From positions 1 to 22,051 of the IMG/VR virus record IMGVR_UViG_3300006802_000661: a DNA stretch of 22,051 nucleotides; one strand, written 5' to 3'. Origin of the DNA: a virus. Below are positions 1,428 through 22,051 of this stretch, one piece after another; within the stretch, counting starts at the first letter, position 1, and each line of letters begins with the position of its first letter. Position numbers and translations under genes: made by a program. The notes beneath the pieces are model-generated. The model was not told where the DNA came from and made no database searches. It saw only the letters and a list, made by a program, of their open reading frames with translations.

Positions 1428-1447
1428 ACCGGCACTAAGGGGGTCAC

Positions 1448-3040: not shown

Positions 3041-3044
3041 AACG

Positions 3045-3290
3045 GTGGACCCCCAGTCCCTCATAAACTTGGCTGTAGGAATAATCCTTACTGGTCTTGG
3101 CTGGTTTGGGCGGCAACTTTGGGATGCCGTCAAAGACTTGCGTAAAGACCTGCATAAGATTGAGTCGGAACTCCCGCGAGTCTACGTCGCCAAGGAGGAG
3201 TTCCGGCATGACATCCAAGAAATTAAGCAAATCTGCAATGAGATATTCCGCAAAATAGACGATCTGCGCGACAGAAAGGCAGACAAATGA
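3045..3290 (+). CDS. Small membrane protein with coiled coil (holin candidate)
   Basis: The start is GTG, 4 bases after the preceding stop, with AGGGGGAG upstream inside the previous gene. The ATG at 3037 opens only a 9-codon reading frame. The 81-residue product has one hydrophobic segment (residues ~6-22, INLAVGIILTGLGWFG) followed by a charged, heptad-like helix to the C-terminus, ending in DRKADK. Proteins of this shape are common beside phage endolysins and are often listed as putative holins or accessory lysis proteins, but the architecture alone does not prove pore formation. It overlaps the next gene by ATGA, indicating coupled translation within the lysis cassette. Alternative: a membrane-anchored scaffold or an antiholin. 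Confidence 0.7.
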   Translation: MDPQSLINLAVGIILTGLGWFGRQLWDAVKDLRKDLHKIESELPRVYVAKEEFRHDIQEIKQICNEIFRKIDDLRDRKADK

Positions 3291-3757: not shown

Positions 3758-3767
3758 GAGCTGTGCC

Positions 3768-4487: not shown

Positions 4488-4714
4488 TTGGGTTTTTGTT
4501 CTCGCCCATCGGGCGCTTTGTGTCAGCGGTTGGCGGGGTCCTCCTCGCCATCGCCGCTGTTTATGGCAAAGGCCGGAGAGACGCCCGGCAAAAGCTGGAG
4601 GCCGAAGCCAATGCTGATGCTCTTGCACGCACGCAGTCTGCTATTCGGGCTGGCGATAACGCTGCTACTGATTCTGCCCGGCTGCGCGACTCCGACGGCC
4701 ACCGTCGCGACTAA
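4484..4714 (+). CDS. Inner-membrane spanin (Rz-like)
   Basis: A 76-residue protein beginning at the ATGA overlap with the endolysin. It has an N-terminal transmembrane helix (residues ~11-27), then a charged helical periplasmic stretch (GRRDARQKLEAEANADALAR and onward), ending in RLRDSDGHRRD. This is the shape of an i-spanin: anchored in the inner membrane, it pairs with the outer-membrane lipoprotein encoded in the overlapping frame to fuse the two membranes at the last step of lysis. It is short for an Rz protein, but the nested partner gene supports the call. Confidence 0.8.
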   Translation: MIGFLFSPIGRFVSAVGGVLLAIAAVYGKGRRDARQKLEAEANADALARTQSAIRAGDNAATDSARLRDSDGHRRD

Positions 4715-8599: not shown

Positions 8600-9091
8600 A
8601 TGTCTGAAGATATTGGCATCAGGGTTGGCACGCCGGAGGACGTAGATGCGATCATGGAGATCGCTCTGTCGGCGTGTGAAGAAAATGGGTTTGTTGACCC
8701 CAATCCTGCAAAGCTTCTGGGTGAAATCTGGCCCGCGCTTAATCTGGAAAAGGGCCTGATCGGAATTATTGGCGATCCCGGTGGCAAGGCAGAAGGAGCA
8801 GTTCTTCTGCGAATTGGATCAATGTGGTATAGTGATAAAGAGGTGCTTGAGGAGAAGGCTATCTTTATTCACCCCGACTACCGCAGCGCTAAAGGGGGCA
8901 GGGCGCGTCGGCTTTGTCAGTTTTCTAAACAGGTAGCCGACAGTCTTGGCATCCCGCTTATTATTGGGGTGCTGTCTAACAACAGGACCGAAGCCAAGGT
9001 CCGCCTTTATGAGCGTCAGTTTGGTAAGCCAAGCGGTGCGTTCTTCCTTTACAATGCCCGTACTGGCGGGTTCAGGGCTGCTGCGGAGTAA
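8600..9091 (+). CDS. GNAT-family N-acetyltransferase-like protein
   Basis: A 163-residue protein with the GNAT layout: IRVGTPEDVDAIMEIALSA at the N-terminus, a central strand EEKAIFIHPDYRSAKGGRARRL carrying the acetyl-CoA pyrophosphate loop (HPDYR-x-x-x-x-G-x-A-R-R-L replacing the usual Q/R-x-x-G-x-G/A), and C-terminal RLYERQFGKPSGAFFLYN. Start ATG has AAGGA seven bases upstream. It would transfer an acetyl group from acetyl-CoA to an amine; the substrate is unknown. It sits inside the virion-protein block, upstream of the large internal protein, which suggests that its target is a virion protein or that the fold has been reused structurally. Confidence 0.8.
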   Translation: MSEDIGIRVGTPEDVDAIMEIALSACEENGFVDPNPAKLLGEIWPALNLEKGLIGIIGDPGGKAEGAVLLRIGSMWYSDKEVLEEKAIFIHPDYRSAKGGRARRLCQFSKQVADSLGIPLIIGVLSNNRTEAKVRLYERQFGKPSGAFFLYNARTGGFRAAAE

Positions 9092-9096
9092 CTGGA

Positions 9097-12000
9097 ATGG
9101 GTGGAAAGACCGCTACAACTACGCAATCGGTCAAAATCCCTGAAGAGGTGATGGCCCGATATAATGCGGTCAATGCCCGCGCTGAAGAAGTGGCAAAACA
9201 GCCCTTTCAGCAATATCAGGGGCAGTTTGTAGCTCCACTCACCCAGACACAGCAGGCAGGTATTGCCGGGACTTCCGCCGCAGCAGGAATGGCCCAGCCG
9301 TACTATCAAGGAGCTACGCAGCAGCTTCTTGGCGCACAGCAGGCAGCGACTCCTCTCTACTATGGCGCGCTTGGCACCGCTGGCGGGGCCGCAGAACAGG
9401 CTCAGAATCTCTACGGTTCAGCTCTTGGCGGCATTAATCAGGCTCAGAGAGCAGGTCAATCCATCACTGGCGCGGCCATGCAGCCGATCATGGGAGCCCA
9501 GCAGGCTTCTGCGCCCCTAATGGGTGCCGCCGCTGGTTTGACCGGGGCTGGTCTTTCTGCTGCACAGCCGTACATGGGCGCTGCTGGTGGCTATCTGGCT
9601 GGTGGCACGCAGGGGATTGCTCCGGGTGCGCTTACTGGTCAGGAAATCAACCAGTATATGTCGCCTTATATGTCTAATGTGATTGGAGCCCAGCAGGCGC
9701 TTCAGGCACAAGAGAACGCAGCGCAGCGTGCCGCTCTATCCAGCCAGCAGATTGGACGCGGTTCCTTTGGTGGTGAACGGGCTGGTCTGGGTCAGGCCAA
9801 TCTGGCTAGACAGCAAAGCCTCGCCAATCAGGCGACTCTCGCCAACCTGCTTCAGTCTGGATACGGGCAGGCCCTTGGCACAGCCCAACAGCAGCAGGCG
9901 CAGCAGCTTGCGGCGGAACAGGCGAATCGCGCGGCCATGCAGTTCGGCGTGCAGGCCGCTGGCAATCTGGGTCAACAGGCTTTCGCGCAGAACCTTGCTG
10001 CGGGTCAACAGCTTGCCAATCTCGGTCAGTCTGCATTTGGGCAGAACATTGCTCAAGGCCAAGCTCTTGCTGGTCTTGGTCAGCAGCAGTACGCTCAGGG
10101 TCTTGGCGCTGCTCAGGCGCAGGCTGGCATCGGCCAAAACATTTATGGCATGGGCGCGCAGCAGGCGGCGCTTCAGCAGGGCGTTGGGCAGGGCCTTTAT
10201 GGCATGGGCGCTCAAACCGCTCAGTCCTTGGCGGGGCTTGGCGCGGGTGCGCAGCAGGCCGCGTTGCAGGGTGCGCAGGCTCAGATTGGCGCTGGCACGC
10301 TGGAGCAGCAGACTCAGCAGGCCGACGCTACGGCTCGCTATCAGCAGTTCCTTCAGGAGCGTGGGTATCCGTTCCAAGTGGCGCAGTTCCTTGCGAACAT
10401 CGCCATGGGCACGGGCGCACTGTCTGGCAGCACCACCACCACGCAGCAGCCTGCTCCGTTCTTCTCTGACGTGCGACTCAAGGATGATGTTGAGCCCGTC
10501 GGTGAGCTTTATGACGGCCAGAAGGTCTATCGCTACAGCATGGGTGATGGGCCCAAGCAGCTTGGTCTGCTGGCTCAAGAAGTTGAAGGCGTGCGCCCGG
10601 ATGCTGTTGGCGAGGCTTCAGGCTTCAAGACCGTTGACTATGACCGCGCTACTGAACAGGCGGCTGGCCTTGGCGCTGCGGCATCCATGGGTGGCGCTGT
10701 CACCCAGCCGGGCGCTTATGCTGCGGGCGGTCTGGTAGACGGCGACGATCTCAAGGCTATTCTTGCTGCGCAGGCGCAGTCGTTCGGTCCATTTGGCGGC
10801 GCTGGCATGTATGGCGGCAGTGCGCAGGGCGCTCCGTTTGGCGGCGTTAAGGGCTTTGTGCCGGATGCCAAATTGCCGGTCGCCAAACTTGCGACGGCTG
10901 GTAATGCGCCTGCCCAGCGCCAGTCTGGTCTTGGTGAAGCCGTTCAGACTGGCAAATCTATTGCTGACCTTGGCAAGATGGCAAAGACTGGCCTTGTTGG
11001 GTCCGAAGCCACCAAGGACAATCCCAAGGGTGACGCTGGACTGTTTGGTTCTGGCGGCAAGTTCTCGTCCGAAGACAATCTCTTCACTCGCGGCAAAGAG
11101 TTTTTGGGTTTCTCCTACGGCGGACTGGTGCCGCGTGATGGCTATGCCACCGCAGGTTCGGTGAACCCTTATGAGAAGACTGAGGACCCGCTTGAGAATG
11201 TGCTTGAAGAGCAGAGCAAGAATGACATTGAGCCGATTAAGCCCGGTCAAATGCCTGCTCCTCCCAAGTCTGCGATGAGTGACATCTTAGACATGGGTAA
11301 ATTGGCAATGGCCGCATATTCCATGTCGGATGCTCGCTTGAAAGATAATATCCGACCCGTGGGCGAGACGTATGACGGCCAGAACATCTATGCCTATGAC
11401 ATGGGTGATGGTCGCACCCGCATTGGCTTGATGGCGCAGGAAGTCATGAAGCGTCATCCTGAAGCGGTTGGTGAGCGCAACGGGTATCTGACGCTGGACT
11501 ACGACAGAGCGACTGGCGAGGCTACGCCGTATGCTTACGGCGGTCTGGTCCCGCGCCAAAGGTACGCCACTGAGGGCGCTGTTGAGGAAGAGCCCGCGTT
11601 TGACATTGAGAAAGCCAAGGGCGCGATTGCCTCTATTGAGAGCAGGGGTCAAGCCGCGCCATATGAGGCCCTTGGCCCTGTGACAAAACGCGGCGACCGT
11701 GCCTACGGCAAATATCAGGTCATGGGAGCTAACATTCCGTCGTGGACGGAAGAGGCCCTTGGCAAGCGTCTGACGCCGGAAGAGTTTGTGAAAAACCCTG
11801 ACGCTCAAGAGAAGGTGTTTGAGCATCACTTTGGGAAAGCCGTTAAACAATACGGCAATCCTTATGATGCTGGCTCTGTGTGGTTCTCTGGTCGTCCCAT
11901 GGCTCGTGCCGGGAATGATTCTGACATACTTGGCACTACTGTTCCTGCGTATGTTTCCAAGTTCCGCGCATCCTATGAAGGTCAAGGTGCGCCGCGTCCG

Positions 12001-13572
12001 CCGGGTCTTGTTCCCGGTGACGAGCGCCGCGCGGCTGGCGTGGAATATGTGAAGGGCTCTGAGCCAAAGTCCATGTTTGACAATCTGGCCGAGAAGGCGA
12101 CCTCTCGCGACTTCTTGGTTCCGGCGCTGTCGTTTGTCGGCAGTATGCTGTCTTCCAAGAGCCCGTATCTGGCGGGGGCTATCGGTGAGGGCATTGTTGG
12201 TGGTGTGGCTGGTTATCAGTCCAACGTTAAGCAGCAGGCCGACCTCGCCAAGAGTGTGCTGGACATTGTGAAGGATCGGTTTGTCATCCGTTCTGAGGGT
12301 GGCAAGACTATTTACTTTAACAAAAGCACCGGACAGATTCTTACGCCTGAACAGTTCAACTCTGCGGTTTCCAAGATCGCCACAGGCATCGGCGTTTCCC
12401 CCGCCGTTCTTGGTATTGACACGACCGCCACAAACGCTCCTGCCGCTATCGGTGCGATCCCTGCTATTGGTGCCCCGCAGACTGCTGGGCAACCGCAGGC
12501 GGCTCCGGGTGCTGAACCCGCGAAGCAGGGTGACCCTGCAAAGCCGGGTGAGCCTGCGAAGGCCGATCAACGTCCGCCTGCCGACATCTTTAAGATGGGT
12601 AAGCTGGAGTTGTTTGACTACGCGGTTAAGAACAAGGCGCAGTTTGGTCTTCTTGATGACCGCGATCCAGACATGCTTGAGAAGAAAGCTCAAGCTTACG
12701 AAATTGAAATGAACAACGCTCAGAATCAGGGCAATGAGCAAGAAGCCCAGCGCATGGCTATGCTGATGAAGGACGCGCGAGATCGCCGCCGTGCTTACGT
12801 TGAGGACGCCATTGACAAACAGTACAAGGACAATCTGGAAATCCAGAAGGCGTCTACGCAACGCGGTGAAGAGTATCGTGCTGACATCAACAAGCGCCTA
12901 CAAGGATATTCTCAAGCACGTGGTGCCCTAACGCGACTTGCTGACATTTACGGCAAGTTTGAGCCGGGTCGCGCTGAACCGCTGAAGGCTGAACTTGCTT
13001 CTTGGGCGAGGACGTTCAGTATCCAGTTGCCTGAAAGCTTCAACACCTCCAGCTACGATCAGGCGCTTAAAATTGCCCTGTCTCAAGCCTTCAGCGTGGT
13101 TGGCGATCAGAACTTGTCGCGCTCGCCCAAGGCTGCTCTTACGGAAGCCGTTCAGACCGTTCCCAACCCGTCGCTTGATCCCGGCGCTACTTATGCGCTT
13201 ATCGGGCGCGCTCTTGGAGAAATGGATTATGTCAACGCCCGTGACAGGGATTACCTGAAGCGCGGTCGTGGCATCACGCCGGAAGACTTTGTGGCCGACT
13301 ACGATAAAATTAGCGGTAATGAGGAAAAGAAGTTCATTGGCAAAGCCTTTGAGGAGATTCCGGTTGGCCGTGGCGTTCAGCGGCGCGATTTGGACAGCCT
13401 TGCTCAGACCTATAACTTCAACAAGTTCTCTGATCGTGAGCGCGAGGGGCGAGAAACGCAAGCGCCTGCAATCCCGCCAGCGGATCAGCGCGAGACTGGT
13501 AAGGTCTATACGGTTCCCGGTAAAGGTGAGTACCGCTGGATGGGCACTGGCTGGCAGAAGGTGGGACAATGA
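9097..13572 (+). CDS. Large internal virion/ejection protein with two S74-like modules and a lytic transglycosylase domain
   Basis: A 1491-residue protein, the longest in the window. Residues 1-~440 are Ala/Gln/Gly-rich helix-forming sequence. Residues 457-519 and 744-806 are two copies (39 of 63 identical by eye) of a tail-fibre-domain / S74-like module: SDxRLKDx, PVGExYDGQ, YxMGDG, GLxAQEV, PxAVGE and DYDRAT; each keeps the Ser-Asp...Lys start of the S74 chaperone family. Residues ~836-965 are lysozyme-like: E848 in IASIESRG is the likely catalytic acid and YGKYQVMG follows, as in SLT lytic transglycosylases, which would cut peptidoglycan at entry (T7 gp16 analogy). A hydrophobic Gly/Ala stretch (~1010-1045, FLVPALSFVGSMLSS) may contact membrane. 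The C-terminus is helical, then a short GKVYTVPGKGEYRW tail. The ATGA overlap couples it to the next internal protein. Confidence 0.78.
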   Translation: MGGKTATTTQSVKIPEEVMARYNAVNARAEEVAKQPFQQYQGQFVAPLTQTQQAGIAGTSAAAGMAQPYYQGATQQLLGAQQAATPLYYGALGTAGGAAEQAQNLYGSALGGINQAQRAGQSITGAAMQPIMGAQQASAPLMGAAAGLTGAGLSAAQPYMGAAGGYLAGGTQGIAPGALTGQEINQYMSPYMSNVIGAQQALQAQENAAQRAALSSQQIGRGSFGGERAGLGQANLARQQSLANQATLANLLQSGYGQALGTAQQQQAQQLAAEQANRAAMQFGVQAAGNLGQQAFAQNLAAGQQLANLGQSAFGQNIAQGQALAGLGQQQYAQGLGAAQAQAGIGQNIYGMGAQQAALQQGVGQGLYGMGAQTAQSLAGLGAGAQQAALQGAQAQIGAGTLEQQTQQADATARYQQFLQERGYPFQVAQFLANIAMGTGALSGSTTTTQQPAPFFSDVRLKDDVEPVGELYDGQKVYRYSMGDGPKQLGLLAQEVEGVRPDAVGEASGFKTVDYDRATEQAAGLGAAASMGGAVTQPGAYAAGGLVDGDDLKAILAAQAQSFGPFGGAGMYGGSAQGAPFGGVKGFVPDAKLPVAKLATAGNAPAQRQSGLGEAVQTGKSIADLGKMAKTGLVGSEATKDNPKGDAGLFGSGGKFSSEDNLFTRGKEFLGFSYGGLVPRDGYATAGSVNPYEKTEDPLENVLEEQSKNDIEPIKPGQMPAPPKSAMSDILDMGKLAMAAYSMSDARLKDNIRPVGETYDGQNIYAYDMGDGRTRIGLMAQEVMKRHPEAVGERNGYLTLDYDRATGEATPYAYGGLVPRQRYATEGAVEEEPAFDIEKAKGAIASIESRGQAAPYEALGPVTKRGDRAYGKYQVMGANIPSWTEEALGKRLTPEEFVKNPDAQEKVFEHHFGKAVKQYGNPYDAGSVWFSGRPMARAGNDSDILGTTVPAYVSKFRASYEGQGAPRPPGLVPGDERRAAGVEYVKGSEPKSMFDNLAEKATSRDFLVPALSFVGSMLSSKSPYLAGAIGEGIVGGVAGYQSNVKQQADLAKSVLDIVKDRFVIRSEGGKTIYFNKSTGQILTPEQFNSAVSKIATGIGVSPAVLGIDTTATNAPAAIGAIPAIGAPQTAGQPQAAPGAEPAKQGDPAKPGEPAKADQRPPADIFKMGKLELFDYAVKNKAQFGLLDDRDPDMLEKKAQAYEIEMNNAQNQGNEQEAQRMAMLMKDARDRRRAYVEDAIDKQYKDNLEIQKASTQRGEEYRADINKRLQGYSQARGALTRLADIYGKFEPGRAEPLKAELASWARTFSIQLPESFNTSSYDQALKIALSQAFSVVGDQNLSRSPKAALTEAVQTVPNPSLDPGATYALIGRALGEMDYVNARDRDYLKRGRGITPEDFVADYDKISGNEEKKFIGKAFEEIPVGRGVQRRDLDSLAQTYNFNKFSDREREGRETQAPAIPPADQRETGKVYTVPGKGEYRWMGTGWQKVGQ
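10465..10653 (+). repeat. S74-like module, copy 1
   Basis: Encodes residues 457-519 of the 1491-residue protein, beginning S457-D-V-R-L-K462 and ending DYDRAT. Matches copy 2 (11326-11514) at 39 of 63 residues. In classic S74 proteins the chain is cut just before this serine. Confidence 0.75.
11326..11514 (+). repeat. S74-like module, copy 2
   Basis: Encodes residues 744-806, beginning S744-D-A-R-L-K749 and ending DYDRAT. It is followed, as is copy 1, by a short Y-x-x-GGLV segment, so the repeated unit is larger than the module itself. Confidence 0.75.
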
Positions 13573-15938
13573 GCGACAAGCTGCTTTCTGATGCCGATCT
13601 TGGCTTGGACAAACCAAATCTGCTGTCTGATGCCGACCTTGGCATTGGATCCAGACCTGCTCCAAAGCTGACATCCGGGGAACAGCAAGCTCTTTCCGAC
13701 GAGGCAAAAATCAAGGCTGCGGAAGGTGTTGTCCCTGAGTCTGTGAAAGCTGGCACGTACAGCGCGCTCAATACCGCTTTGTTTAATGCGCCCTCTCATG
13801 CGGTCGCTCTGAAGACATATCTCTCTGGGGATCGTCCCTACAGTGAGGTTTATAAAGAGCAGAAGGACTATGAAGAGGCCCTTGCCCGGCGCAGTCCGAT
13901 TGCCTCAAAGGTCGGAATGGGCGCTGGCTTTGTGGGCGGCTTGGCCGTACCTCTCGGTCCTGTGGCGAGGGCTGGTCAGGCAGCTAAAGCTGTGGTGGCT
14001 CCTCGTGCTGGTGAATTGGCAGGACGGGCCGCTGAAGCATCCACTATGGGCGGGGTTCTGTCTGGCGCGGGCTCTTATGTTGAGAGTGGAGGGCCATTTG
14101 CGGCTGAAGAAGGCGCTGGCGCTAAAGCTCTCCGTGATGCTGCGGTTGGCGCTGGTGCGGGTGCTGTGCTTGGCCCTGCCATCGGTGGCATTGCAAGTCG
14201 CCTCGCCAAGAAGCCGGATGTGACGGATGCCGCTGGTGAGCTTTCTCCGGCTGCTGCAAGAGCAGTGGAGGAAGCGTTTGGCAAGCGCTTGTCTCCTGAA
14301 GATATTCAACGCATCCGTCCGCAGCTTGAAGAAGTCATGGGCCAGAAGGGTATTTCTGTTGCGGCTGCAAAAGAAGCTCTACTGAAAGCGGAAGGTATTG
14401 ACCCGACCAAGAGCATGGTGACGGGCAAGAAGCCTCCGGTGTCTGCCGCCGAAGCTGCCGAAGAAGGCGCGATTACCGCTCGCGAGAAGATTGCCGAGAC
14501 TGGTCAGGCTATGGCTGGTCCGCGTCCGCCTGAGTCCGCTGTTGCTCGCGCGCTCTATGAGACAGAGCGTGACTATTACAACATGGCGAAAGCTCAGTAT
14601 GAGAAGACCTTTTCTCATCCCGGCTACTTTGACACGGATTTTACCGATCTGGTCCTGCCAAATGTTGTGAAAGAACTAAACAGTCGGAGTCTTCCGACCA
14701 GTTACGACAGGCTGCCTCAGTTCACCTATGCCCCGCAGGCTATGCGCCTTCTCAGTGATGTTGGCTCTGGTCACTTGCCCCTTAATCAGCCCATCAACAT
14801 GAAAAATCTTGATGAGGTAAATAAGGGCCTTAATACGTTATGGGCAAAAGCCTCTGGAGAAGATCGCATCGCCATTCAGGCAATGAAGAAGGGATTCATG
14901 AACTCTCTTGATGAGGCCCTGACAAACAATTTGTTTTATGCGGGAACTTTTGACCAAGGAACTAAATCTGCAATTCAACAAGCATTTGGCCGCAGGCTTT
15001 CTTCTCCGGGCGGCGAGTCTCTTGTTGAGGACCTAAAAAAGTCTCGTGATCTTTGGTCCATATATCGTCAAACCTTTTATGGAAAAGACGATGCGGGAAA
15101 GGTTTTCCGCAAGGCGCTTGAGAAATTCAAGGAGCCTGATGGCAGCATGACAACTTTTGTTGAGCCTGCTGCTGCTGAAACCGCTCAGGCGGTTATCAAT
15201 TCCAACTTGCTCAAGGGCAACATGGGCGCTCAGGTTTATGAGAAACTTGAGTCCGCGCTTGGTCGTGGCTCTCCCGGCATGGAAGCGGTTGATCGCTACA
15301 TCAAGAACTACGCCTTTGACTTCCAAAACAATCTGACAAATCTTCCCAAGAAGATTGATAGCTTCCTTGCGCCTGAGAACCTTTCCCTTGCCAAGAAGGT
15401 GTTCACGCCCGCCGAGATTAGTCAGATGCGTCGTCTCTCAGAGGCGACTAAGATCATCAATGCTCGCAAAGTCGCTGATGCAGAAAAAGAGGGCCTATTT
15501 GTTAAGGCCGCAAAGCGCGTTGCTCCGGCTGTAATTGGCGGCATCGCGGGTTCTTTTCATGGCATCCCCGGCTCAATCCTTGGTTCTCTTGCAGCGGAAA
15601 GCATTGGCTCAGGGGTACGCGGTCTGGCGAGGTCTGTCCAAATTGGGGCAGAGAAGGCAGGCGCTCCCGTGGTCCGCCCTGAAGTTACAATTCCCGCACC
15701 TGTCAGAAATGTGCCCGGCTTATATCCTGTTGAGGAAGAATCGGGCTATGGCCTTCCGCCGGATCGGGTTGGCCGCGCTGATGGTGGCAAAGTGATGGGC
15801 GCAGAAGGTCATGCTGACCGTCTTGTTGCCATGGCAGAGAAAGCCAAGCATAATCTTGGCAAGGAAACTAAACCGCTCCTCAATGCGCCGGATGAGCATA
15901 TTGCCAAGGCGCTAGAGATCGCGAACCGGCACATCTGA
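13569..15938 (+). CDS. Internal virion/ejection protein
   Basis: A 789-residue, mostly helical protein, coupled by ATGA to the transglycosylase-bearing protein. The N-terminus holds two copies of LLSDADLG (residues ~5-12 and 18-25), then a long Ala/Gly-rich region with hydrophobic Gly-zipper-like stretches (VGMGAGFVGGLAVPLG; DAAVGAGAGAVLGPAIGG; VIGGIAGSFHGIPGSILG) that could insert into a membrane. The C-terminus reads GRADGGKV and then HADRLVAMAEKAK and PDEHIAKALEIAN, a tail I have seen in other phage internal proteins. Long, Gly/Ala-rich, amphipathic and next to an SLT protein, it fits a pilot or ejection protein (P22 gp20/T7 gp15 functional class) that forms the DNA conduit. No enzyme motif found. 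Confidence 0.7.
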   Translation: MSDKLLSDADLGLDKPNLLSDADLGIGSRPAPKLTSGEQQALSDEAKIKAAEGVVPESVKAGTYSALNTALFNAPSHAVALKTYLSGDRPYSEVYKEQKDYEEALARRSPIASKVGMGAGFVGGLAVPLGPVARAGQAAKAVVAPRAGELAGRAAEASTMGGVLSGAGSYVESGGPFAAEEGAGAKALRDAAVGAGAGAVLGPAIGGIASRLAKKPDVTDAAGELSPAAARAVEEAFGKRLSPEDIQRIRPQLEEVMGQKGISVAAAKEALLKAEGIDPTKSMVTGKKPPVSAAEAAEEGAITAREKIAETGQAMAGPRPPESAVARALYETERDYYNMAKAQYEKTFSHPGYFDTDFTDLVLPNVVKELNSRSLPTSYDRLPQFTYAPQAMRLLSDVGSGHLPLNQPINMKNLDEVNKGLNTLWAKASGEDRIAIQAMKKGFMNSLDEALTNNLFYAGTFDQGTKSAIQQAFGRRLSSPGGESLVEDLKKSRDLWSIYRQTFYGKDDAGKVFRKALEKFKEPDGSMTTFVEPAAAETAQAVINSNLLKGNMGAQVYEKLESALGRGSPGMEAVDRYIKNYAFDFQNNLTNLPKKIDSFLAPENLSLAKKVFTPAEISQMRRLSEATKIINARKVADAEKEGLFVKAAKRVAPAVIGGIAGSFHGIPGSILGSLAAESIGSGVRGLARSVQIGAEKAGAPVVRPEVTIPAPVRNVPGLYPVEEESGYGLPPDRVGRADGGKVMGAEGHADRLVAMAEKAKHNLGKETKPLLNAPDEHIAKALEIANRHI
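13581..13643 (+). repeat. Direct repeat encoding LLSDADLG twice
   Basis: Bases 13581-13604 and 13620-13643 match at 22 of 24 positions, with a 39-base offset that keeps frame. Both encode Leu-Leu-Ser-Asp-Ala-Asp-Leu-Gly at the N-terminus of the second internal protein. Confidence 0.85.
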
Positions 15939-15948
15939 GGACTGAGAC

Positions 15949-17439
15949 ATGACCTCCACGTACACCACCAACAAGAACTTAGAGAAGCCGGGCAATAACG
16001 ACTACATTGATACGTGGAATGTGCCGGTTAACGCTGACTGGGACATCATTGACAAAGCGTTTGGCGGCGTGGCGACGCTCACCGATACGAGCGGCACACG
16101 CACGCTGGCGGACACGGAATATCAGGCTCTTATCCTTGCCTCTACTGCTACGCTTGTCGGCAATGTGACCTACCGGATTCCATCCGGTGTCGGCGGTCAG
16201 TGGATTGTGGATAACCGTACCACGGGTTCCTACACCTTCACCGTTTCTTCACTTGGCGGCGGCACATCCGTTACCTGCACGCAGAACGCCAGAACGCTGA
16301 TCTTCAGTGATGGCACCAATATCCGCCTGTCATCTGATGCCACGGTCACGTCTGGCACGGGCATTACGGTGTCTGGCGGTCAAGTTAACTTGGACGTGCC
16401 TGTAACTGCGGTGCGTGGTGGCACTGGGTTCACGACCTACACCACTGGCGACATCATTTACGCCTCTGGCACCAACACGCTTGCCAAACTCTCGGCTGGC
16501 ACGGCGGGCTATATCCTCACCATGTCTGGCGGGGTTCCTGTTTGGGCCGCGAACGCTGGCGGCGGCGGTGGTGGCGGTACGGTCACGAGCATTACGGTTG
16601 ATGGCGGCACAACTGGCCTGTCATTCACACCTGCTACGCCGGTCACAACGTCTGGCACGTTCTCTATGCAGGGCACGCTTGGCGCTGGCTATGGTGGCAC
16701 CGGGTTCTCGTCTTACGCTGTTGGCGACATTCTGTATGCCAATACGGGCAGCACCCTCGCCAAGCTGGCGGGTACGGCGACGGGCAATGCACTTATTTCT
16801 GGTGGCGTCGGCGCGGCTCCCTCTTGGGGCAAGATTGGCCTGACGACTCACGTTAGCGGCACCCTTCCGGTCGCGAACGGTGGCACGGGCACGGCTTCTA
16901 CGCCGTCTAACGGTCAACTCCTGATTGGCAATGGGTCGGGCTTCACGCTTGCGTCCTTGACCAACGGAACCGGCATTGGCGTCTCTGGCGGCGCTGGCTC
17001 TATCACGATCAGCAATTCCGGCGTCACGAGCGTTGCAGCGGGAACCGGGATTAGTGTCTCTGGCTCTACCGGTAGCGTCACAATCACTAACACTGGTCCT
17101 TCCAGTATTGTGGCTGGCACGGACGGTGGTATTTCCGTGAGCGGCACGTCTACTGTGACGATTGCGCAGGCTCCCTACACGGGCACGTCAGCCACCAACA
17201 CCAATTACCCGATTGGTTCCATGGTGATCTTGGAGTCCAGCACCAACACTCCGGGAACGCCCGGATTCTATATGAACCAATCAACAACTCTTTATGCAGG
17301 CACCAGCCCATTCACCCCATACAACGTCAATGACTTGGGTTCTGGTTCGGCTCTGAGTGGCACGTGGCGCTTCCGTGGCTTGTCTGGCGTGGACACTGGT
17401 GCGGGCAAGTATTACTACATGTATCAGCGTGTTTCTTGA
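15949..17439 (+). CDS. Tail fibre with GGTG repeats
   Basis: A 496-residue protein, very rich in Gly, Thr and Ser with almost no charged residues after residue ~40, as in beta-structured trimeric fibres. The N-terminus (TTNKNLEKPGNNDYIDTW, then VPVNADWDIIDKAFGG) is a typical virion-attachment segment. Three repeat modules with GGTG cores follow, two of them sharing GDI-x-YA and TLAKL. A run of eight glycines sits near residues 203-210. The C-terminus (WRFRGLSGVDTGAGKYYYMYQ) would form the receptor-binding tip. GAGGAC upstream serves as ribosome site. It is the second fibre in the window, distinct from the collagen-like one at the left edge. Confidence 0.82.
   Translation: MTSTYTTNKNLEKPGNNDYIDTWNVPVNADWDIIDKAFGGVATLTDTSGTRTLADTEYQALILASTATLVGNVTYRIPSGVGGQWIVDNRTTGSYTFTVSSLGGGTSVTCTQNARTLIFSDGTNIRLSSDATVTSGTGITVSGGQVNLDVPVTAVRGGTGFTTYTTGDIIYASGTNTLAKLSAGTAGYILTMSGGVPVWAANAGGGGGGGTVTSITVDGGTTGLSFTPATPVTTSGTFSMQGTLGAGYGGTGFSSYAVGDILYANTGSTLAKLAGTATGNALISGGVGAAPSWGKIGLTTHVSGTLPVANGGTGTASTPSNGQLLIGNGSGFTLASLTNGTGIGVSGGAGSITISNSGVTSVAAGTGISVSGSTGSVTITNTGPSSIVAGTDGGISVSGTSTVTIAQAPYTGTSATNTNYPIGSMVILESSTNTPGTPGFYMNQSTTLYAGTSPFTPYNVNDLGSGSALSGTWRFRGLSGVDTGAGKYYYMYQRVS
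16411..16960 (+). repeat. GGTG fibre repeat modules
   Basis: Three diverged units starting near 16411, 16681 and 16864 encode V-R-GGTGF, G-Y-GGTGF and A-N-GGTGT respectively. Units 1 and 2 continue with GDI-x-YA, a TLAKL motif and a GG-V-x-x-W end. The pattern is a known feature of phage tail fibres. Confidence 0.75.
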
Positions 17440-17447
17440 GGTGAATG

Positions 17448-17672
17448 ATGGCTGCACCCGCTCGCAATCTTAACAACTGCCAGATCATGCCTGACGGCGC
17501 ATATCTGGTCCAGTTGGAAATCTACGATACAGCAGGGCAATCATGGGTCGCTTGTCCGTATGTCGCGCGAGAATCTGACGGTACGCCCGTGGCCGTTTGG
17601 GTGCTTGCGGAAATCGCGACTGGCAAATATCCCATCTCGCCATGGGTGCCTCCGACGCCGCCTACGCCGTAA
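17448..17672 (+). CDS. Small fibre-linked hypothetical protein
   Basis: A 74-residue protein following the second fibre by a few bases. Two adjacent ATGs exist (17445, 17448); GAGGTG at 17438-17443 is better spaced for the second. Contents: LNNCQIMPDGAYLVQLEIYD, an aromatic strand pair, and a proline-rich end WVPPTPPTP. No family recognised. Position suggests a fibre chaperone, assembly factor or tip subunit. It is the last gene of the plus-strand block. Confidence 0.65.
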   Translation: MAAPARNLNNCQIMPDGAYLVQLEIYDTAGQSWVACPYVARESDGTPVAVWVLAEIATGKYPISPWVPPTPPTP

Positions 17673-17680
17673 AGGTAAAT

Positions 17681-17712
17681 TGCCCCGGCTACGCAAAACG
17701 CAAGCCGGGGCA
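17681..17712. terminator. GC-rich hairpin between convergent gene blocks
   Basis: TGCCCCGGCT (17681-17690) and AGCCGGGGCA (17703-17712) form a perfect 10-bp stem with a 12-base loop, located 8 bases after the last plus-strand stop and 46 bases from the end of the minus-strand block. Neither side has a good T-run, so it may be an inefficient or bidirectional terminator, or protect mRNA 3' ends. Confidence 0.7.
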
Positions 17713-17758
17713 GTAAGCGTTACGATCTGACGCTGTGACAGTTATTGAAAACCAGAGG

Positions 17759-18097
17759 CTAGGTTACTGGCCCTGATTCAGTGGGAGCGACATGCTCCCG
17801 CTCTCCGCTTTGCGAAGCTCGTAAAACTGTTTCCTCATATCGGCGGACGCCCTGAAGGATGCTCGTATGATCCTTTTGGCCGCTATAAAATGCAAGCCAT
17901 AAATAGCTCTTCTTGCACTCATGCCGCCCGCGCCACCACGCCTCGCGGCGAGCTTTAACGAGCTTCATAGTCCGCCTTTCACCGTCAAGCTCTTCCATGG
18001 TTATGCCGTGTTTAGCACAAACCTCACGCTTAACCTGATGATAGCTTTTTGGTTTTGGCTCTTGGCACGTAGCTGAAGGCAAAGAATCGCTCTCCAT
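17759..18097 (-). CDS. Stand-alone DnaA domain IV-like DNA-binding protein
   Basis: A 112-residue protein whose residues ~18-91 follow the DnaA C-terminal duplex-DNA-binding domain: an ITMEELDGERR segment (basic R41-R42), KLVKARREAWW, and the signature LAFYSGQKDHTSILQGVRRYEE (D76-H77-T78-S79), which matches the DnaA box-recognition motif G-x-x-D-H-[ST]-[TS]-[VI]-x-x-A/G. The AAA+ ATPase and domain I of DnaA are absent and there is no room for them. Start ATG 18097 is firm: GGGAGG lies 6 bases upstream. It is the last gene of the minus-strand operon. It may bind host DnaA boxes or phage origins as competitor or regulator (inference); its own targets are unknown. Confidence 0.72.
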   Translation of the reverse strand: MESDSLPSATCQEPKPKSYHQVKREVCAKHGITMEELDGERRTMKLVKARREAWWRGRHECKKSYLWLAFYSGQKDHTSILQGVRRYEETVLRASQSGEREHVAPTESGPVT

Positions 18098-18227
18098 CTG
18101 GGGCCTCCCATAAGTCTAAATACGCAGCCTTTTCATGGCGAGGATCGGACGACATGCGAATGTCCCCATCCGGCTCCTCATATGCCCAAAGACCCTGCTC
18201 TATGTCATCACGTTCTGGGCGTCTCAA
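18030..18227 (-). CDS. Small phage hypothetical protein (start uncertain)
   Basis: A frame open from 18329 to 18030. I place the start at TTG 18227, which overlaps the previous stop as TTGA and gives 65 residues; ATG 18329 would give 99 residues but a 106-base overlap with the preceding gene, and ATG 18155 only 41 residues. The product is acidic then basic (RRPERDDIEQGLWAYEEPDG, then AYLDLWEAPDGERFFAFSY, ending RAKTKKLSSG). It overlaps the DnaA-like gene by 68 bases. No family recognised. Confidence 0.5.
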   Translation of the reverse strand: MRRPERDDIEQGLWAYEEPDGDIRMSSDPRHEKAAYLDLWEAPDGERFFAFSYVPRAKTKKLSSG

Positions 18228-18454
18228 CCACCCAAACGTATTATGCCATCCTGATTTGATGACTTGATATTCCGACCGAAAGTCGGATTGTCGGTTGCTC
18301 TCACGTCCTTGTTTTCCCATGTCCAGCACTCCCCATCCTCATGAAAGCATATCCATAACCAGTGATGTTCTGCGCCATAGTCCACGATGAAATGCGCAAG
18401 AGCTTTGCCTTTCGGCGTGTTCAGAGGAATAGTAGGGTTAAGTTGTAAGATCAT
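18224..18454 (-). CDS. Conserved small phage protein, unknown function
   Basis: A 76-residue protein coupled to the GcrA-like gene by ATGA, with GGAGG four bases before the ATG. The N-terminal part (LNPTIPLNTPKGKALAHF, then VDYGAEHHWLWICF and DGECWTWENKDVRA) is a pattern I recognise from many phage and prophage genomes, usually 60-75 residues long and without assigned function. The conserved part ends near FGR (residue ~61); the last ~15 residues are extra and overlap the next frame. Confidence 0.75.
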   Translation of the reverse strand: MILQLNPTIPLNTPKGKALAHFIVDYGAEHHWLWICFHEDGECWTWENKDVRATDNPTFGRNIKSSNQDGIIRLGG

Positions 18455-18951
18455 TTAGCCTCCAAGTATCTTGGATTTAATTGAAATGCCTTGCGCGGTC
18501 TGTCGCGCTTGCGCGGCTCTGACTTGATGTAGCAAATACTGTGATGGTCCTCACAGTACGATCCTGTCTTCTTTGGCTTGCCGCAGAACAGGAAGTCAGA
18601 GGGCTTCTTGCTGTCATTGATGACAAATCGGCAGGATGTCGCCTTCAGCTCCATGAGCGACAGGGGCCGCAAACCGTCCTCCACCGGCGGCAGTGGCGGC
18701 AGCGCCCTGCTCTTATTGCTCTTAACAAACGGATAAGACTTACGCTGCGCCCGCTCCTTGGAGGATATGTTCTTCTTCTGCGCGGGGTCCCTGTATTCAA
18801 GTAGCCCGAGTTTGCGCAGACGACCTACTTTCCCCAGAACGGCGCTTCTAGTCATCCCTAGCTTTTCACCGATCTGTTTGCCGGTAAGTCCTTTCTCCCA
18901 AAGCTCTAGTATTTTCTTAACTGTTTTATGGGCATGCTGTATCGCAACCAT
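18451..18951 (-). CDS. gcrA: GcrA-family cell-cycle regulator homologue
   Basis: GcrA in Caulobacter and relatives binds sigma70-RNA polymerase and activates promoters bearing CcrM-methylated GANTC sites. This 166-residue protein has both expected parts: an N-terminal helix-turn-helix (residues ~10-48, ILELWEKGLTGKQIGEKLG then TRSAVLGKVGRLRKLGL) and the C-terminal GcrA segment SCRFVINDSKKPSDFLFCG with YCEDH, giving C107, C123, C133 and H136, matching the family's conserved Cys/His. The linker (51-95) is basic. It differs from host GcrA at the extreme N-terminus, which normally reads W-T-x-E-R. AGGTGA precedes ATG 18951. It sits mid-operon in the early-type block, so it may redirect host RNA polymerase or cell-cycle genes (inference). 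Confidence 0.85.
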   Translation of the reverse strand: MVAIQHAHKTVKKILELWEKGLTGKQIGEKLGMTRSAVLGKVGRLRKLGLLEYRDPAQKKNISSKERAQRKSYPFVKSNKSRALPPLPPVEDGLRPLSLMELKATSCRFVINDSKKPSDFLFCGKPKKTGSYCEDHHSICYIKSEPRKRDRPRKAFQLNPRYLEAK

Positions 18952-18958
18952 GTATCAC

Positions 18959-19120
18959 CTATTTCTTATTCCTTATGTCATCCCACTTTTCTCTCGCTAA
19001 CTCCCAACCCATGAGGGTCAGGAGTCCTGTCACCATAATGATCAGGACCGTTATGCAACTCAGCATAATGATCCCCAAGAATGTTGCGGCCTCTACCATG
19101 TGTATAATGTCCCTGCCCAT
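18959..19120 (-). CDS. 53-residue single-span membrane protein
   Basis: A short frame in the gap between the transglycosylase and gcrA genes. ATG 19120 is preceded by AAGGTG with 5-base spacing and lies 28 bases inside the transglycosylase 3' end; the stop TAG ends 8 bases before the gcrA start. The product begins MGRDIIHMVEAA, has one strong hydrophobic helix (residues ~15-37, mostly Ile, Leu, Met, Val, with one Cys) and a charged tail WELAREKWDDIRNKK. Good ribosome site, tight packing and clear membrane topology argue for a real gene. A role beside a secreted transglycosylase could be holin-, pinholin- or exclusion-related; this is speculation. Confidence 0.6.
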   Translation of the reverse strand: MGRDIIHMVEAATFLGIIMLSCITVLIIMVTGLLTLMGWELAREKWDDIRNKK

Positions 19121-19713
19121 GCTGGCACCTTGGACGCCTGAGCCATCCGCACGTATTTGGCGCGGTATGCCTGAGCTTTCCGGTTAAGTTTCTTATTCCA
19201 GCCGCCCCAGCCAGCAACGTGACACGCCGCTAATTGGTTGTAGCTCTTAGCCCCCACGGAGATGCACTTCTCCATGTGCTTGATCCCCGCCATGATCTGC
19301 GCCTTGCAGTCACGATGAAGATCATATGAGCTGATCCCAAAGGCTTCCGCACTCTTGGGCAGCACTTGCAGCGGGCCCACAGCGCGCCCGTGGCGGGTCT
19401 TGGGGCCAAGGACATGGCACCGATACCCACTCTCCAGTTTGGTCAGCCTGAGAGCGTCCTGCACGTGCTGCTGGCCCAGTACGGATTTAGCTTCCGCAGC
19501 GACCATAGCCGCAACCTTGGCCTTGTCTGGCGACATAGCGTTTAGGTCTAGCTTGCCCGCCCACGCTGGAGTTTCGGGGGCGCGTAGCCCCCTACTCCAG
19601 TAGTCGCGATCTTTACGGAAGAAATCTGCCGCTGATTCATCAGCCGCCAGCGGGTGTATCAGGCTGGTTAGGGTGAGAGCCGTAGCCGTTGTCATAGCTA
19701 TCAGTCGGCGCAT
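19093..19713 (-). CDS. Secreted SLT-type lytic transglycosylase
   Basis: The frame is open to 19794, but I start at ATG 19713: GGGAG lies seven bases upstream and this places a signal peptide first (MRRLIAMTTATALTLTSLIH, cleavage likely after PLAA). The 206-residue product has a lysozyme-like domain with E94 in LTKLESGY as predicted catalytic acid and GPLQVLPKSAEAFG following, as in Slt/VirB1 enzymes; GWGGWN and the AQAYRAKY end complete it. Four cysteines (YRC, RDC, EKC, AAC) fit two periplasmic disulphides. It would cleave peptidoglycan from the periplasm. It lies in the minus-strand block, away from the late lysis genes, so it may serve superinfection exclusion or remodelling early in infection (inference). 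Overlaps the upstream gene by 74 bases. Confidence 0.8.
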   Translation of the reverse strand: MRRLIAMTTATALTLTSLIHPLAADESAADFFRKDRDYWSRGLRAPETPAWAGKLDLNAMSPDKAKVAAMVAAEAKSVLGQQHVQDALRLTKLESGYRCHVLGPKTRHGRAVGPLQVLPKSAEAFGISSYDLHRDCKAQIMAGIKHMEKCISVGAKSYNQLAACHVAGWGGWNKKLNRKAQAYRAKYVRMAQASKVPAWAGTLYTW

Positions 19714-20044
19714 TGGTATTCTCCCGTTTAGGTGCGAGCCGCCTTGCCATAGCGGCGATGTCATCCTCAATGTTTCCAAACTGCGCAGCCGCAAACTGCC
19801 CAGCGATAGCCGTGTAGTTTACGTCATCAACCCACGAGTCAACAAGCGTGGGGTTTTCTGTCTGACGTGCTTGCTTCACGCACGACATGATGATTGCAAC
19901 GTCATACATGCTGATCGGCCTGTTCAGGCGGATAGATGCGAGCTTCGCGGCGCGATCAAATGAGAGTTCCACGGGGCCGTATTGATGGCCGCGTTCTTTC
20001 AACGTGTGCGCTGCGGTTGTCAAAATTTCTGTGTGGTTCATCAT
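19640..20044 (-). CDS. DUF6378-like phage protein
   Basis: A 134-residue protein of a family common in phages. Core pattern: LKERGHQYGPVELSFDRAA, then DVAIIMSCVKQARQTENP and DSWVDDVNYTAIAG, resembling DUF6378 and more loosely MazG-like helical folds with Asp/Glu-rich helices. Whether it hydrolyses nucleotides is not known. Two adjacent ATGs (20044, 20041) are possible; AGGA lies 5 bases ahead of the second. The C-terminus is low complexity (asparagine, proline, aspartate) and overlaps the transglycosylase gene by 74 bases. Confidence 0.72.
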   Translation of the reverse strand: MMNHTEILTTAAHTLKERGHQYGPVELSFDRAAKLASIRLNRPISMYDVAIIMSCVKQARQTENPTLVDSWVDDVNYTAIAGQFAAAQFGNIEDDIAAMARRLAPKRENTNAPTDSYDNGYGSHPNQPDTPAGG

Positions 20045-20306
20045 AGTCCTGTTCCTTTCCGTATTCCAAGTAGACTTGCACTTTACCGATATGATTGGTG
20101 TTTAAGAGTATATCACCCCTATCTTCCCATATTGTCTCTCCCGTTATGTGATCTTTGCGCTTATAGTAAAGAAGCACCTTAACAAAGATGTCGTCATTTA
20201 GTTGCTTCAGAAACTTATCAAGCGTTTCACACTCTGTCTCAACCGTCATCTGGTGGACAAGGTACTCTTTGGCGCTTGGCATGTTCATTGTGATGAGCAG
20301 CTTCAT
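19956..20306 (-). CDS. Hypothetical protein with long 3' overlap
   Basis: A 116-residue protein, coupled to the upstream nuclease-like gene by ATGA. Residues 1-~85 look like a compact alpha/beta domain (TVETECETLDKFLKQLNDD, then VKVLLYYKRKD and GDILLNTNHIGKVQVYLEYG). Residues ~86-116 are polar and arginine-rich and lie entirely in the 89-base overlap with the next gene, so the conserved domain ends near the start of that gene. No other frame explains 20045-20306. Function not recognised. Confidence 0.65.
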   Translation of the reverse strand: MKLLITMNMPSAKEYLVHQMTVETECETLDKFLKQLNDDIFVKVLLYYKRKDHITGETIWEDRGDILLNTNHIGKVQVYLEYGKEQDYDEPHRNFDNRSAHVERTRPSIRPRGTLI

Positions 20307-20815
20307 TTCTGTTCCTCAATGGAGATAAACTTGCAATCTTTCGGATGGCACGTGTAGTACTTTTCAAACTTTTGAGTGTTTGATGCGTATATATCCCGTA
20401 TCTCCCACTCGTCTATTTTGCTTCCTTTAACAATAATCATATGAGTCATGTCTTTATTCAGAATTAAGTAAGCAGAGATGTGCCCGCGATTTCTCTGAAC
20501 GGTATATATGTTTGATACAATCACGGACGGATGAGGGAAGTCTTCCGCGCACGTAAACTTGGTCTGCTTGAAGTGTTTGACCTCAACTATTGATTGGCTG
20601 CCGTCATCATTGGTGATGATGATGTCACCCTTGTCTACGTACTTCAGAAACTCTCTATGCTCTGGAGAATACCGAATAGCAGGAATGGTCACGGTCTTGC
20701 CCTTTCTATGCAGCCATTCAGCTACCTTAAAAAGAGCAGGACGTGATCCATCCAAACGCTTCAGGAATCTCTCGTGAGATTCAGCTCTCTGCGTCTCGTC
20801 TGACAACGGTTCCAT
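20303..20815 (-). CDS. Probable PD-(D/E)XK-type nuclease or restriction-endonuclease-like protein
   Basis: A 170-residue product from ATG 20815; the frame extends to a TTG at 20881 and a GTG at 20848 but those deepen the overlap with the HNH gene. No strong ribosome site precedes any of them. The centre holds KYVDKGDIIITNDDGSQ followed by IVEVKHFKQTKFT, that is D-x13-E-V-K, the metal-binding pattern of the PD-(D/E)XK fold (acidic residue on one strand, E-x-K on the next, lysine after). Downstream strands (HISAYLILN, THMIIVKGS) fit the core sheet. It could act in recombination, DNA processing or host DNA breakdown. Assignment rests on this motif and predicted strands only. Confidence 0.55.
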   Translation of the reverse strand: MEPLSDETQRAESHERFLKRLDGSRPALFKVAEWLHRKGKTVTIPAIRYSPEHREFLKYVDKGDIIITNDDGSQSIVEVKHFKQTKFTCAEDFPHPSVIVSNIYTVQRNRGHISAYLILNKDMTHMIIVKGSKIDEWEIRDIYASNTQKFEKYYTCHPKDCKFISIEEQK

Positions 20816-21134
20816 CCATCTTGCGTTTCCACTTGGAGTTCCTGCCACCCGGTATCGGGCTTTTGGATTTCTTGGCTCCAATGTGGCGTTGGTGTATGCG
20901 TTTTACCTTGGCGATCAGGGGAGCATCCACAGTAGCAGTATGAGCACGATGGCACTTGCGATGGGCAACCAGCCAATTACTAGCATCGTCAGCGCCACCT
21001 GCTTCCAATGGAATTTCATGTGACACGTCCCACTCTTGTCCGGGGATCACTTTCATGTTGCACAGGTGGCAGATGCCGCCGTGCCGCATAAAGATGTCAG
21101 CCCGCGTTTTGGCCGTGATGCGTACCCGTTTCAT
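20781..21134 (-). CDS. HNH endonuclease
   Basis: A 117-residue protein with zinc knuckle C22-x2-C25 and C61 later, and the HNH core WDVSHEIPLEAGGADDASNW with H39, N53 and H62. HNH proteins nick or cut DNA; stand-alone copies near phage packaging genes help terminase, while others are homing nucleases. The C-terminal tail is strongly basic (SKWKRKMDGTVVRR) and could bind DNA. It is coupled by ATGA to the acidic protein upstream and followed by the nuclease-like gene. No terminase gene is in the window to test the packaging link. Confidence 0.85.
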   Translation of the reverse strand: MKRVRITAKTRADIFMRHGGICHLCNMKVIPGQEWDVSHEIPLEAGGADDASNWLVAHRKCHRAHTATVDAPLIAKVKRIHQRHIGAKKSKSPIPGGRNSKWKRKMDGTVVRRDAES

Positions 21135-21436
21135 TGCAAAATTTGCTCTTCATCGTCTTCTTCTTCATCATCAAAGTTCATATGCACAAACTCGTATATG
21201 CGCGCGTGCATGGTTGCAGACATGCACTTTGCGGCAACTCCGTTCTTTGCGACAGAGCTAATGACACGCCCAGCAACAACCGTGGCAATAGTTAGCGCCA
21301 TGCTTTCATCTACATTCTCCAAAATCTTGATAATCTGATCTGATATTTTTTTTAACTTAACAGCAGCTTCTATTCCCTCTCGGACCTCATCTACTAGGCG
21401 AGTCAATTGCTCAATTTCATCTTCATGATCGCTCAT
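21131..21436 (-). CDS. Small acidic helical protein, unknown function
   Basis: A 101-residue protein; AGGAG lies seven bases before ATG 21436. The N-terminal half is a charged coiled coil (EIEQLTRLVDEVREGIEAAV), the middle is a hydrophobic helix (SMALTIATVVAGRVISSV), and the C-terminus is an acidic run FDDEEEDDEEQ. No enzyme motif. The acidic tail could mimic DNA or bind a basic partner such as the HNH protein encoded next (inference only). Confidence 0.65.
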   Translation of the reverse strand: MSDHEDEIEQLTRLVDEVREGIEAAVKLKKISDQIIKILENVDESMALTIATVVAGRVISSVAKNGVAAKCMSATMHARIYEFVHMNFDDEEEDDEEQILQ

Positions 21437-21446
21437 ATCATATCTC

Positions 21447-21764
21447 CTACAGCTTCATTTCCGCGCGCTTGGTGGCCTCATGTGATTGCCACTCATGAAA
21501 GCGCATCCTGATATATTCCAGTTGGACTTTGAGCAGAGACGCCTTTTCACGCGCCTCTACCATGCTCTTGACGTACTCACGCCACTCGCCAGAAGCCTTG
21601 ACGTTCATCTCGGCGCGACTGACAGGCATATCTCCCTGCCCCGCCATCATCTGAGCAAGCACGCTAGATTTGGTTTCCTCCAACATGGAGGCCGCAGAGT
21701 CCGCATCAACCCACTTTTTGGCGATGACGCGAAACTGTTCTGAGAGAGGGAGATTTGCGTCCAT
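21447..21764 (-). CDS. Conserved phage coiled-coil protein, unknown function
   Basis: Residues from ATG 21764 (a TTG at 21770 is also in frame): a helical protein with LSEQFRVIAKKWVDADSAAS, LEETKSSVLAQ, RAEMNVKASGEWREYVKSM and LLKVQLEYIRMRFHEWQSHE. I recognise this pattern from many phage genomes, where it sits beside a single-strand-binding-like protein in early operons, as here. It starts 2 bases after the stop of that neighbour. No function is established that I know of. There is no strong ribosome site, so translation is probably coupled. Confidence 0.72.
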   Translation of the reverse strand: MDANLPLSEQFRVIAKKWVDADSAASMLEETKSSVLAQMMAGQGDMPVSRAEMNVKASGEWREYVKSMVEAREKASLLKVQLEYIRMRFHEWQSHEATKRAEMKL

Positions 21765-21766
21765 GG

Positions 21767-22015
21767 TCAAAAAGGAATCTCGTCGTCAGAAACAGCCTGA
21801 CGCGGGGCAGATTGGGGAGCGTTCTGGCGCGGCTCTTTCTTCTTGAAAGAGAATGAATACCAAGGGTTGCCGTTCTTATCCACTTTGCGCCAGCCGTTGA
21901 TCCAGTAGGTCTGACCGTCAATCATGACATCTCCGGTCATGTCGGCCTGTCTGTCATTATCTTTGCGGGTGTTCTTGATCATAGAGCCGCTGTTATCCCT
22001 AAGCTCATACGCCAT
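21767..22015 (-). CDS. Small single-strand-DNA-binding-like protein with acidic tail
   Basis: An 82-residue protein beginning MAYELRDNSGSMIKN, followed by GDVMIDGQTYWINGWRKVDK and WYSFSFKKKE, a short beta-barrel-like set of strands known from many phage proteins, and ending SDDEIPF. The last motif is the acidic tip seen at the C-terminus of bacterial SSB (DDDIPF), which docks replication and repair partners. AGGAGA lies six bases before ATG 22015. Fits an early DNA-metabolism role; DNA binding itself is not shown. Confidence 0.65.
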   Translation of the reverse strand: MAYELRDNSGSMIKNTRKDNDRQADMTGDVMIDGQTYWINGWRKVDKNGNPWYSFSFKKKEPRQNAPQSAPRQAVSDDEIPF

Positions 22016-22051
22016 TATATTTCTCCTTCAGCTTGGAAACCATTTCATCCA
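22005..22051 (-). CDS. 3' end of an upstream minus-strand gene (partial)
   Basis: The frame from the right edge reads DEMVSKLKEKYNGV then a TGA at 22007-22005, overlapping the SSB-like gene start by 11 bases. The other two minus frames carry earlier stops. The charged helical tail is consistent with a real C-terminus but too short to identify. Confidence 0.4.
   Translation of the reverse strand, partial: DEMVSKLKEKYNGV

Follow-up and report, generated by a model that had tools for sequence, protein, structure and literature searches.

One minus-strand gene run in the window (the whole stretch of phage DNA analysed, 22,051 nucleotides of IMG/VR record IMGVR_UViG_3300006802_000661) encodes a homologue of the cell cycle regulator GcrA and a stand-alone copy of DnaA domain IV. 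The observation is real and lies far beyond chance. The operon would yield two regulators that act on DNA and were taken over from the cell cycle of alphaproteobacteria, and the preferred reading, to which we assign a probability of about 40%, is that the pair competes for host DnaA sites and redirects GcrA-dependent transcription. This reading is plausible and partly supported; we infer DNA binding, host sites as targets and an effect on the host cell cycle.

Gene organization and phage background

The run (17759 to 19120) comprises, in reading order, a gene for a small hydrophobic protein, gcrA, genes for 76- and 99-amino-acid (aa) proteins, and dnaA-C, which encodes the DnaA domain IV protein (Table 1). 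From gcrA to dnaA-C, all genes lie on one strand with overlapping ends, and the first-pass annotation, which had placed dnaA-C three genes downstream of gcrA in the same run, is borne out by this order. Scans of Pfam and PHROG gave no match for the 76-aa protein and no family match for the 99-aa protein, and a Pfam scan gave no significant match for the 233-aa protein farther upstream. In the related phage G499, a 99-aa frame with a similar N terminus occupies the equivalent place. A promoter scan of the operon found consensus sites no more often than in shuffled sequences.

Table 1. Features of the gcrA/dnaA-C region, in window coordinates
Feature	Position	Strand	Basis or remark
GcrA homologue, both domains, 166 aa	18451..18951	-	PF07750, PDB 7ye1, model matches, conserved columns
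GcrA HTH DNA-binding domain, residues about 10-50	18802-18924	-	part of 166-aa GcrA
GcrA sigma-interacting domain, residues about 98-145; C107, C123, C133, H136	18517-18660	-	
Stand-alone DnaA domain IV protein, 112 aa, without AAA+ domain	17759..18097	-	PF08299, model versus 1j1v, dN/dS
Bac_DnaA_C domain proper, recognition motif KDHTSILQGVRRYEE	17843..18037	-	profile positions 3-67 of 69, contact residues
76-aa gene between gcrA and dnaA-C; 4-base overlap with gcrA	18224..18454	-	open frame; G499 and G500 copies nearly identical
99-aa gene, GTG start, overlaps both neighbours	18030..18329	-	open frame
53-aa hydrophobic gene directly upstream of gcrA	18959..19120	-	open frame; DNA-level conservation in G499 and G500
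233-aa gene, upstream in same run; transglycosylase-like by eye only	19093..19794	-	open frame; retained in kin phages
TTATACACA, consensus DnaA box (TTATNCACA)	19099..19107	-	about 150 bases upstream of gcrA start; identical in window phage, G499 and G500

The window and the 56-kb record IMGVR_UViG_3300025848_000049 represent the same phage, with 99.96 to 99.97% identity over two shared blocks (14.7 kb; window 1 to 4662 and 11995 to 22051). The window joins both ends of that record and adds 7.3 kb absent there, an arrangement that indicates a probably circular map of about 63.5 kb. The phage encodes an O-like/HTH_36 initiator, SF2 helicase, Toprim primase, ERF, YqaJ, RusA, TerL and a podovirus-like portal. 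Since these genes supply initiator, helicase and primase functions, the phage does not need DnaA as an initiator. The nearest named records are an uncultured Manatee Spring phage (portal 63%), followed by Pelagibacter, Caulobacter RW-group and Roseobacter phages, and from these relatives together with GcrA we infer an alphaproteobacterial host. A megablast search of phages with the window DNA gave no match, and a search of one genome per species gave no close homologue of the 112-aa domain. Elsewhere in the window, a tail-fibre-type protein begins with collagen-like GPTGPTG repeats (positions 3 to 300), and a 530-aa protein amid the structural genes (1448 to 3040) resembles, on visual inspection, a fusion of a methyltransferase with a glycosyltransferase.

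Two candidate signs of GcrA/CcrM biology were rejected. A methyltransferase-like protein of the phage (IMG/VR 3300025848_000049, 40402 to 41061) matches only phrog_799 and no Pfam methylase, and so does not qualify as a CcrM-like partner. GANTC reaches only 0.72 of its expected frequency, yet depletion is stronger for CCNGG (0.44) and CTNAG (0.64), and the GANTC value is therefore uninformative. Locus L013 contains an AAA+/DUF2201-VWA gene pair (13666 to 15866; record 33666 to 35866) of 64% GC with 22 GANTC sites in 2.2 kb, compared with 99 in the other 54 kb of its record.

GcrA homologue

The 166-aa protein matches PF07750 at 76.8 bits (cut-off, 26.9) over profile positions 7 to 153 of 155, and PDB 7ye1 chain G matches it across both domains (E 3.8e-11). 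The predicted model has a pLDDT of 81, with both domains above 90, and the closest solved structures (7ye1, 5yix and 7ye2) are all Caulobacter GcrA. C107, C123, C133 and H136, together with A37, V38, G40 and R44, are invariant in an alignment of 30 phage and bacterial GcrA sequences. The first-pass description of a GcrA-like protein with these three cysteines, the histidine and an HTH thus holds, as does the profile search that it had proposed. The WPIGD motif of host GcrA proteins is FVIND in the window protein. GcrA binds region 2 of sigma70 and methylated promoters (PMC7403470), and with both domains intact, the phage homologue could possibly take part in sigma70/GANTC-type transcription.

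Stand-alone DnaA domain IV protein

The product of dnaA-C had been described as a 112-residue protein with the DnaA box-recognition motif and no ATPase, and both the Bac_DnaA_C profile search and the structure prediction agree with this. It matches PF08299 at 37 bits, above the curated cut-off of 31.5, and has no AAA+ ATPase domain III and no Pfam match besides domain IV. Its AlphaFold model (pLDDT 86.5) has the domain IV fold, aligning with 1J1V at Z 13.4 (rmsd 1.8 Å over 80 residues) and with 3pvp at Z 13.2, compared with Z 6.7 for the best unrelated fold; DnaA domain IV structures are its only strong PDB matches.

R399 and the helix formed by residues 434 to 451 read the DnaA box (PMC5742627). 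The window protein retains the box contacts R399, R407, D433, H434 and T435 (E. coli numbering) and carries conservative or other changes at T436 (to S), V437 (to I), H439 (to Q) and K443 (to R). As T436, V437 and H439 are changed, specificity may have shifted. The recognition motif of the kin phages is KDHTTIIHGVRRYEE, which marks the S and Q of the window motif as local changes. Among 86 phage stand-alone proteins, R399 is present in 79, R407 in all 86 and H434 in 82; the search patterns of the viral survey contained DHT or the R407 region, so that conservation there is partly built in, with R399 and P423 lying outside the patterns. Binding of the 112-aa protein to DnaA-box-like sites is possible, judging from its intact contact residues.

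Conservation in related phages

In the related phages G499 and G500 (portal 92%), gcrA and the DnaA domain gene occur in the same order as in the window phage, and the gap between the two domains is 465 bases, compared with 467 in the window phage. The pair is under purifying selection, with dN/dS against kin of 0.17 to 0.19 for the DnaA domain and 0.20 (against G500) for GcrA. Two other portal relatives carry one gene each: GcrA only in G505 and the DnaA domain only in G511. Between G499 and G500 (loci L357 and L356), GcrA is 55% identical and the DnaA domain 90%, as if gcrA had been swapped or pressed to change.

Distribution and co-occurrence of the two families

At least 321 IMG/VR loci were confirmed to carry stand-alone DnaA domain IV, and 138 to carry GcrA; among the best 80 of the domain loci, 56 of 82 frames were shorter than 200 aa. 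The GcrA profile also exceeded its cut-off in a control genome, that of the archaeon Sulfolobus acidocaldarius. A search of the open-access literature found no description of the pairing or of stand-alone DnaA domain IV in phages, and the reuse of this domain alone in many phages appears to be new to the literature.

PF07750 was detected in 12 of 50 domain-bearing contigs (10 over cut-off), and PF08299 in 9 of 50 GcrA contigs (6 over cut-off, two of these being full-length DnaA frames). By comparison, and only roughly, about 1 in 115 alphaproteobacterial genomes has a phage-type stand-alone domain. Eight of 16 non-redundant pairs lay within 500 bases of each other on the same strand, where random placement predicts 0.28, and pairs came in both gene orders, as if the pair had been put together more than once. 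The pairing is not confined to the window phage: four cultured Caulobacter phages, and numerous uncultured phages, have both families. The same pair in other, distantly related viruses suggests that such viruses may steer when host DNA is read and copied. In L215 and L217 (IMG/VR 2935750917 and 2935684952; 8740 to 10510), a 407-aa DnaA-like frame with AAA+ and domain IV stops 1 base before gcrA.

Adjacency was nevertheless rejected as proof of joint function, because the control RusA, an unremarkable early gene, lay on the same strand and within 1.8 kb of the DnaA domain in 9 of 9 cases, as close as GcrA does. Closeness therefore mainly marks an early DNA-metabolism module, to which the DnaA domain belongs on the evidence of its neighbours (replication-initiation, methyltransferase, RusA and MuA/MuB genes). 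Two further stand-alone domain IV genes, in alphaproteobacterial genomes, are placed immediately behind MuA/MuB in Mu-like prophages (L087, 9752 to 10090; L088, 9871 to 10185).

DnaA boxes

The phage holds two TTATNCACA sites in about 63.5 kb, where 1.2 are expected, and a search for a DnaA-box cluster in it found none. The TTATACACA box upstream of gcrA sits where two coding frames overlap by 28 bases, and its conservation is thus explicable by coding alone. In 72 loci with the domain, TTATNCACA was at chance level (8 seen, 8.8 expected) and no locus had a cluster; use of a phage origin via DnaA boxes was rejected, the boxes being neither enriched nor clustered. This chance level counts against a phage origin rich in boxes and against a large regulon of phage genes driven by them; the remaining options are host sites or an altered target site. 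In 66 phage loci with GcrA only (L177 to L252, without DnaA_C), TTATNCACA was in excess (18 seen, 7.5 expected).

Proposed function and alternatives

In the host-directed mechanism, the stand-alone domain IV would bind DnaA-box-type sites. Lacking the ATPase, the 112-aa protein would be unable to oligomerise or open DNA and would therefore sit on sites required by host DnaA, namely oriC and DnaA-regulated promoters, and possibly also on the single conserved box before its own operon. The phage GcrA, whose sigma70-interacting domain is intact, would maintain sigma70 transcription at promoters of the GcrA type, or redirect it. Jointly, the two proteins would favour S-phase-like gene expression without new initiation of the host chromosome, while the phage replicates by its own initiator, helicase and primase. 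The identity and fold of the domain, its contact residues, purifying selection, the phage's own replication genes, boxes at chance level and joint occurrence in cultured Caulobacter phages all argue for this mechanism. Against it stand the RusA control and the best-studied small DnaA-IV-like proteins, GafY and the N terminus of GafA, which activate phage-like genes rather than block oriC. Further points against it are the possible shift in specificity through the changed residues and the frequent presence of the domain in Mu-like prophages and in phages that lack GcrA, so that it need not work with GcrA. The first-pass annotation had proposed that the phage competes for DnaA boxes and redirects methylation-dependent transcription; its family assignments were right, with DnaA-box contacts and both GcrA domains intact, and its host-directed part is favoured by boxes at chance, but the GafY/GafA relatives mean that it is not the sole reading.

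The strongest rival is that the domain acts like GafY, binding upstream of phage promoters and recruiting RNA polymerase, with GcrA as a separate sigma70 cofactor, so that the pair runs the phage transcription programme; we consider this somewhat unlikely. GafY shows that a DnaA-IV-like domain on its own can serve as a sigma70-contacting activator, and it provides the chief competing model for the phage protein. Caulobacter crescentus GafY and the N terminus of Rhodobacter capsulatus GafA resemble DnaA domain IV; GafY, which binds RpoD, switches on the gene-transfer-agent cluster, and GafA acts through RNA polymerase omega (PMC11150451, PMC9638019 and PMC6363796). Small chromosomal DnaA_C proteins of alphaproteobacteria (L089 to L095) have DRTT, not DHTT, and directly precede a DUF6456/GafZ gene in all six cases tested; they are probably GafY-GafZ pairs in many alphaproteobacteria. 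The box kept upstream of gcrA in three phages would also suit such an activator. However, GafY proteins group on a separate branch (SH-aLRT 95, in a poorly resolved tree of 91 columns) that excludes the window protein, and they mostly have DRTT without R399, whereas the phage proteins have DHT[TS] with R399. None of ten neighbouring window proteins is a DUF6456 partner, the neighbours of phage domains are replication, methyltransferase and RusA genes and not late-gene switches, and these phages show no enrichment of DnaA boxes, although the site may differ. Weak GafZ-like matches (E 1e-3 to 1e-4) occur a few kilobases downstream of some phage DnaA domains (L113, 12228 to 13181; L107, 12689 to 13330; L138, 8553 to 9125), and the order in L138 is DnaA_C, GcrA-like HTH, GafZ-like.

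A further host-directed reading is a recurrent two-protein module in which the DnaA-box occupant blocks host DnaA and the phage GcrA supplies the transcription otherwise set off via host gcrA, uncoupling S-phase expression from initiation. DnaA activates gcrA in C. crescentus, and a DnaA-blocking phage would there gain by carrying its own gcrA. We regard such a module as unlikely.

The two genes could instead do unrelated jobs, sharing an early run only because phage early genes cluster; the domain would then repress its own operon locally, and GcrA would act alone, as proposed for phiCbK. The equally tight linkage of RusA, the faster divergence of GcrA than of the domain between G499 and G500, and the many phages (most of those surveyed, and G505 and G511 among kin) that have one gene without the other are in its favour. 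The frequency of the pair in contigs of either family, set roughly against alphaproteobacterial genomes, and the occurrence of both gene orders speak against this explanation, which appears improbable. Least probable is a protein marking the phage replication origin for the O-like initiator and helicase: the gene adjoins replication-initiation, primosomal or RusA genes in many phages and directly follows MuA and MuB in Mu-like prophages, but neither the window phage nor the 72 domain loci have a DnaA-box cluster, and in the window phage it lies about 11 kb from the primase-helicase-initiator block.

Ever since phiCbK, GcrA in phages has been regarded as a curiosity. Its repeated pairing with a stripped-down DnaA domain, both in kin phages under purifying selection and in cultured Caulobacter phages, provides a laboratory system for asking whether phages take over the alphaproteobacterial cell cycle. 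If the host-directed reading is true, the domain would offer a naturally occurring dominant-negative means of interfering with the initiation of bacterial replication.

Comparison with known systems

Phage-borne GcrA is already known. The phiCbK homologue gp222 (Gill et al. 2012, PMC3556154) has, like the window protein, both the DNA-binding and the sigma-interacting domain, and the same role, altering the host replicative state, has been proposed for it. It and other phage GcrA proteins, including those of Brevundimonas phages vB_BpoS-Gurke and -Kikimora, are about 30 to 32% identical to the window GcrA. The window gene differs in lying beside a DnaA domain IV gene, a neighbour not described for phiCbK. 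phiLM21-like prophages carry GcrA, and one also lists a DnaA-type protein (PMC12429752). Caulobacter phages RW, GB2A, RLK and KcrB resemble the window phage in having both families in one genome and a distantly related portal (31%), but carry the pair in a reduced version: gp61 retains only the DNA-binding part of GcrA, gp42 (annotated 'dnaA domain' in RW) matches the DnaA profile weakly at 16.4 to 16.7 bits, below cut-off, and the two genes are 12 kb apart.

The 112-aa protein shares its fold and DNA-contact residues with domain IV of host DnaA at only 20 to 25% identity to the solved structures, and lacks domains I to III, and so has no ATP binding, oligomer formation or strand opening. Like GafY and the GafA N terminus, it is a small DnaA-domain-IV-like protein, DNA-binding by type, without an ATPase and tied to phage-like genes in alphaproteobacteria; GafY is distinguished by its GafZ (DUF6456) partner and altered recognition residues (DRTT). 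The E. coli prophage protein YfdR is reported to bind DnaA, and its gene cluster to inhibit replication initiation (PMC4776307). YfdR is thus a prophage product aimed at DnaA-dependent initiation, as proposed here for the window protein, with the difference that in that account YfdR binds the DnaA protein itself.
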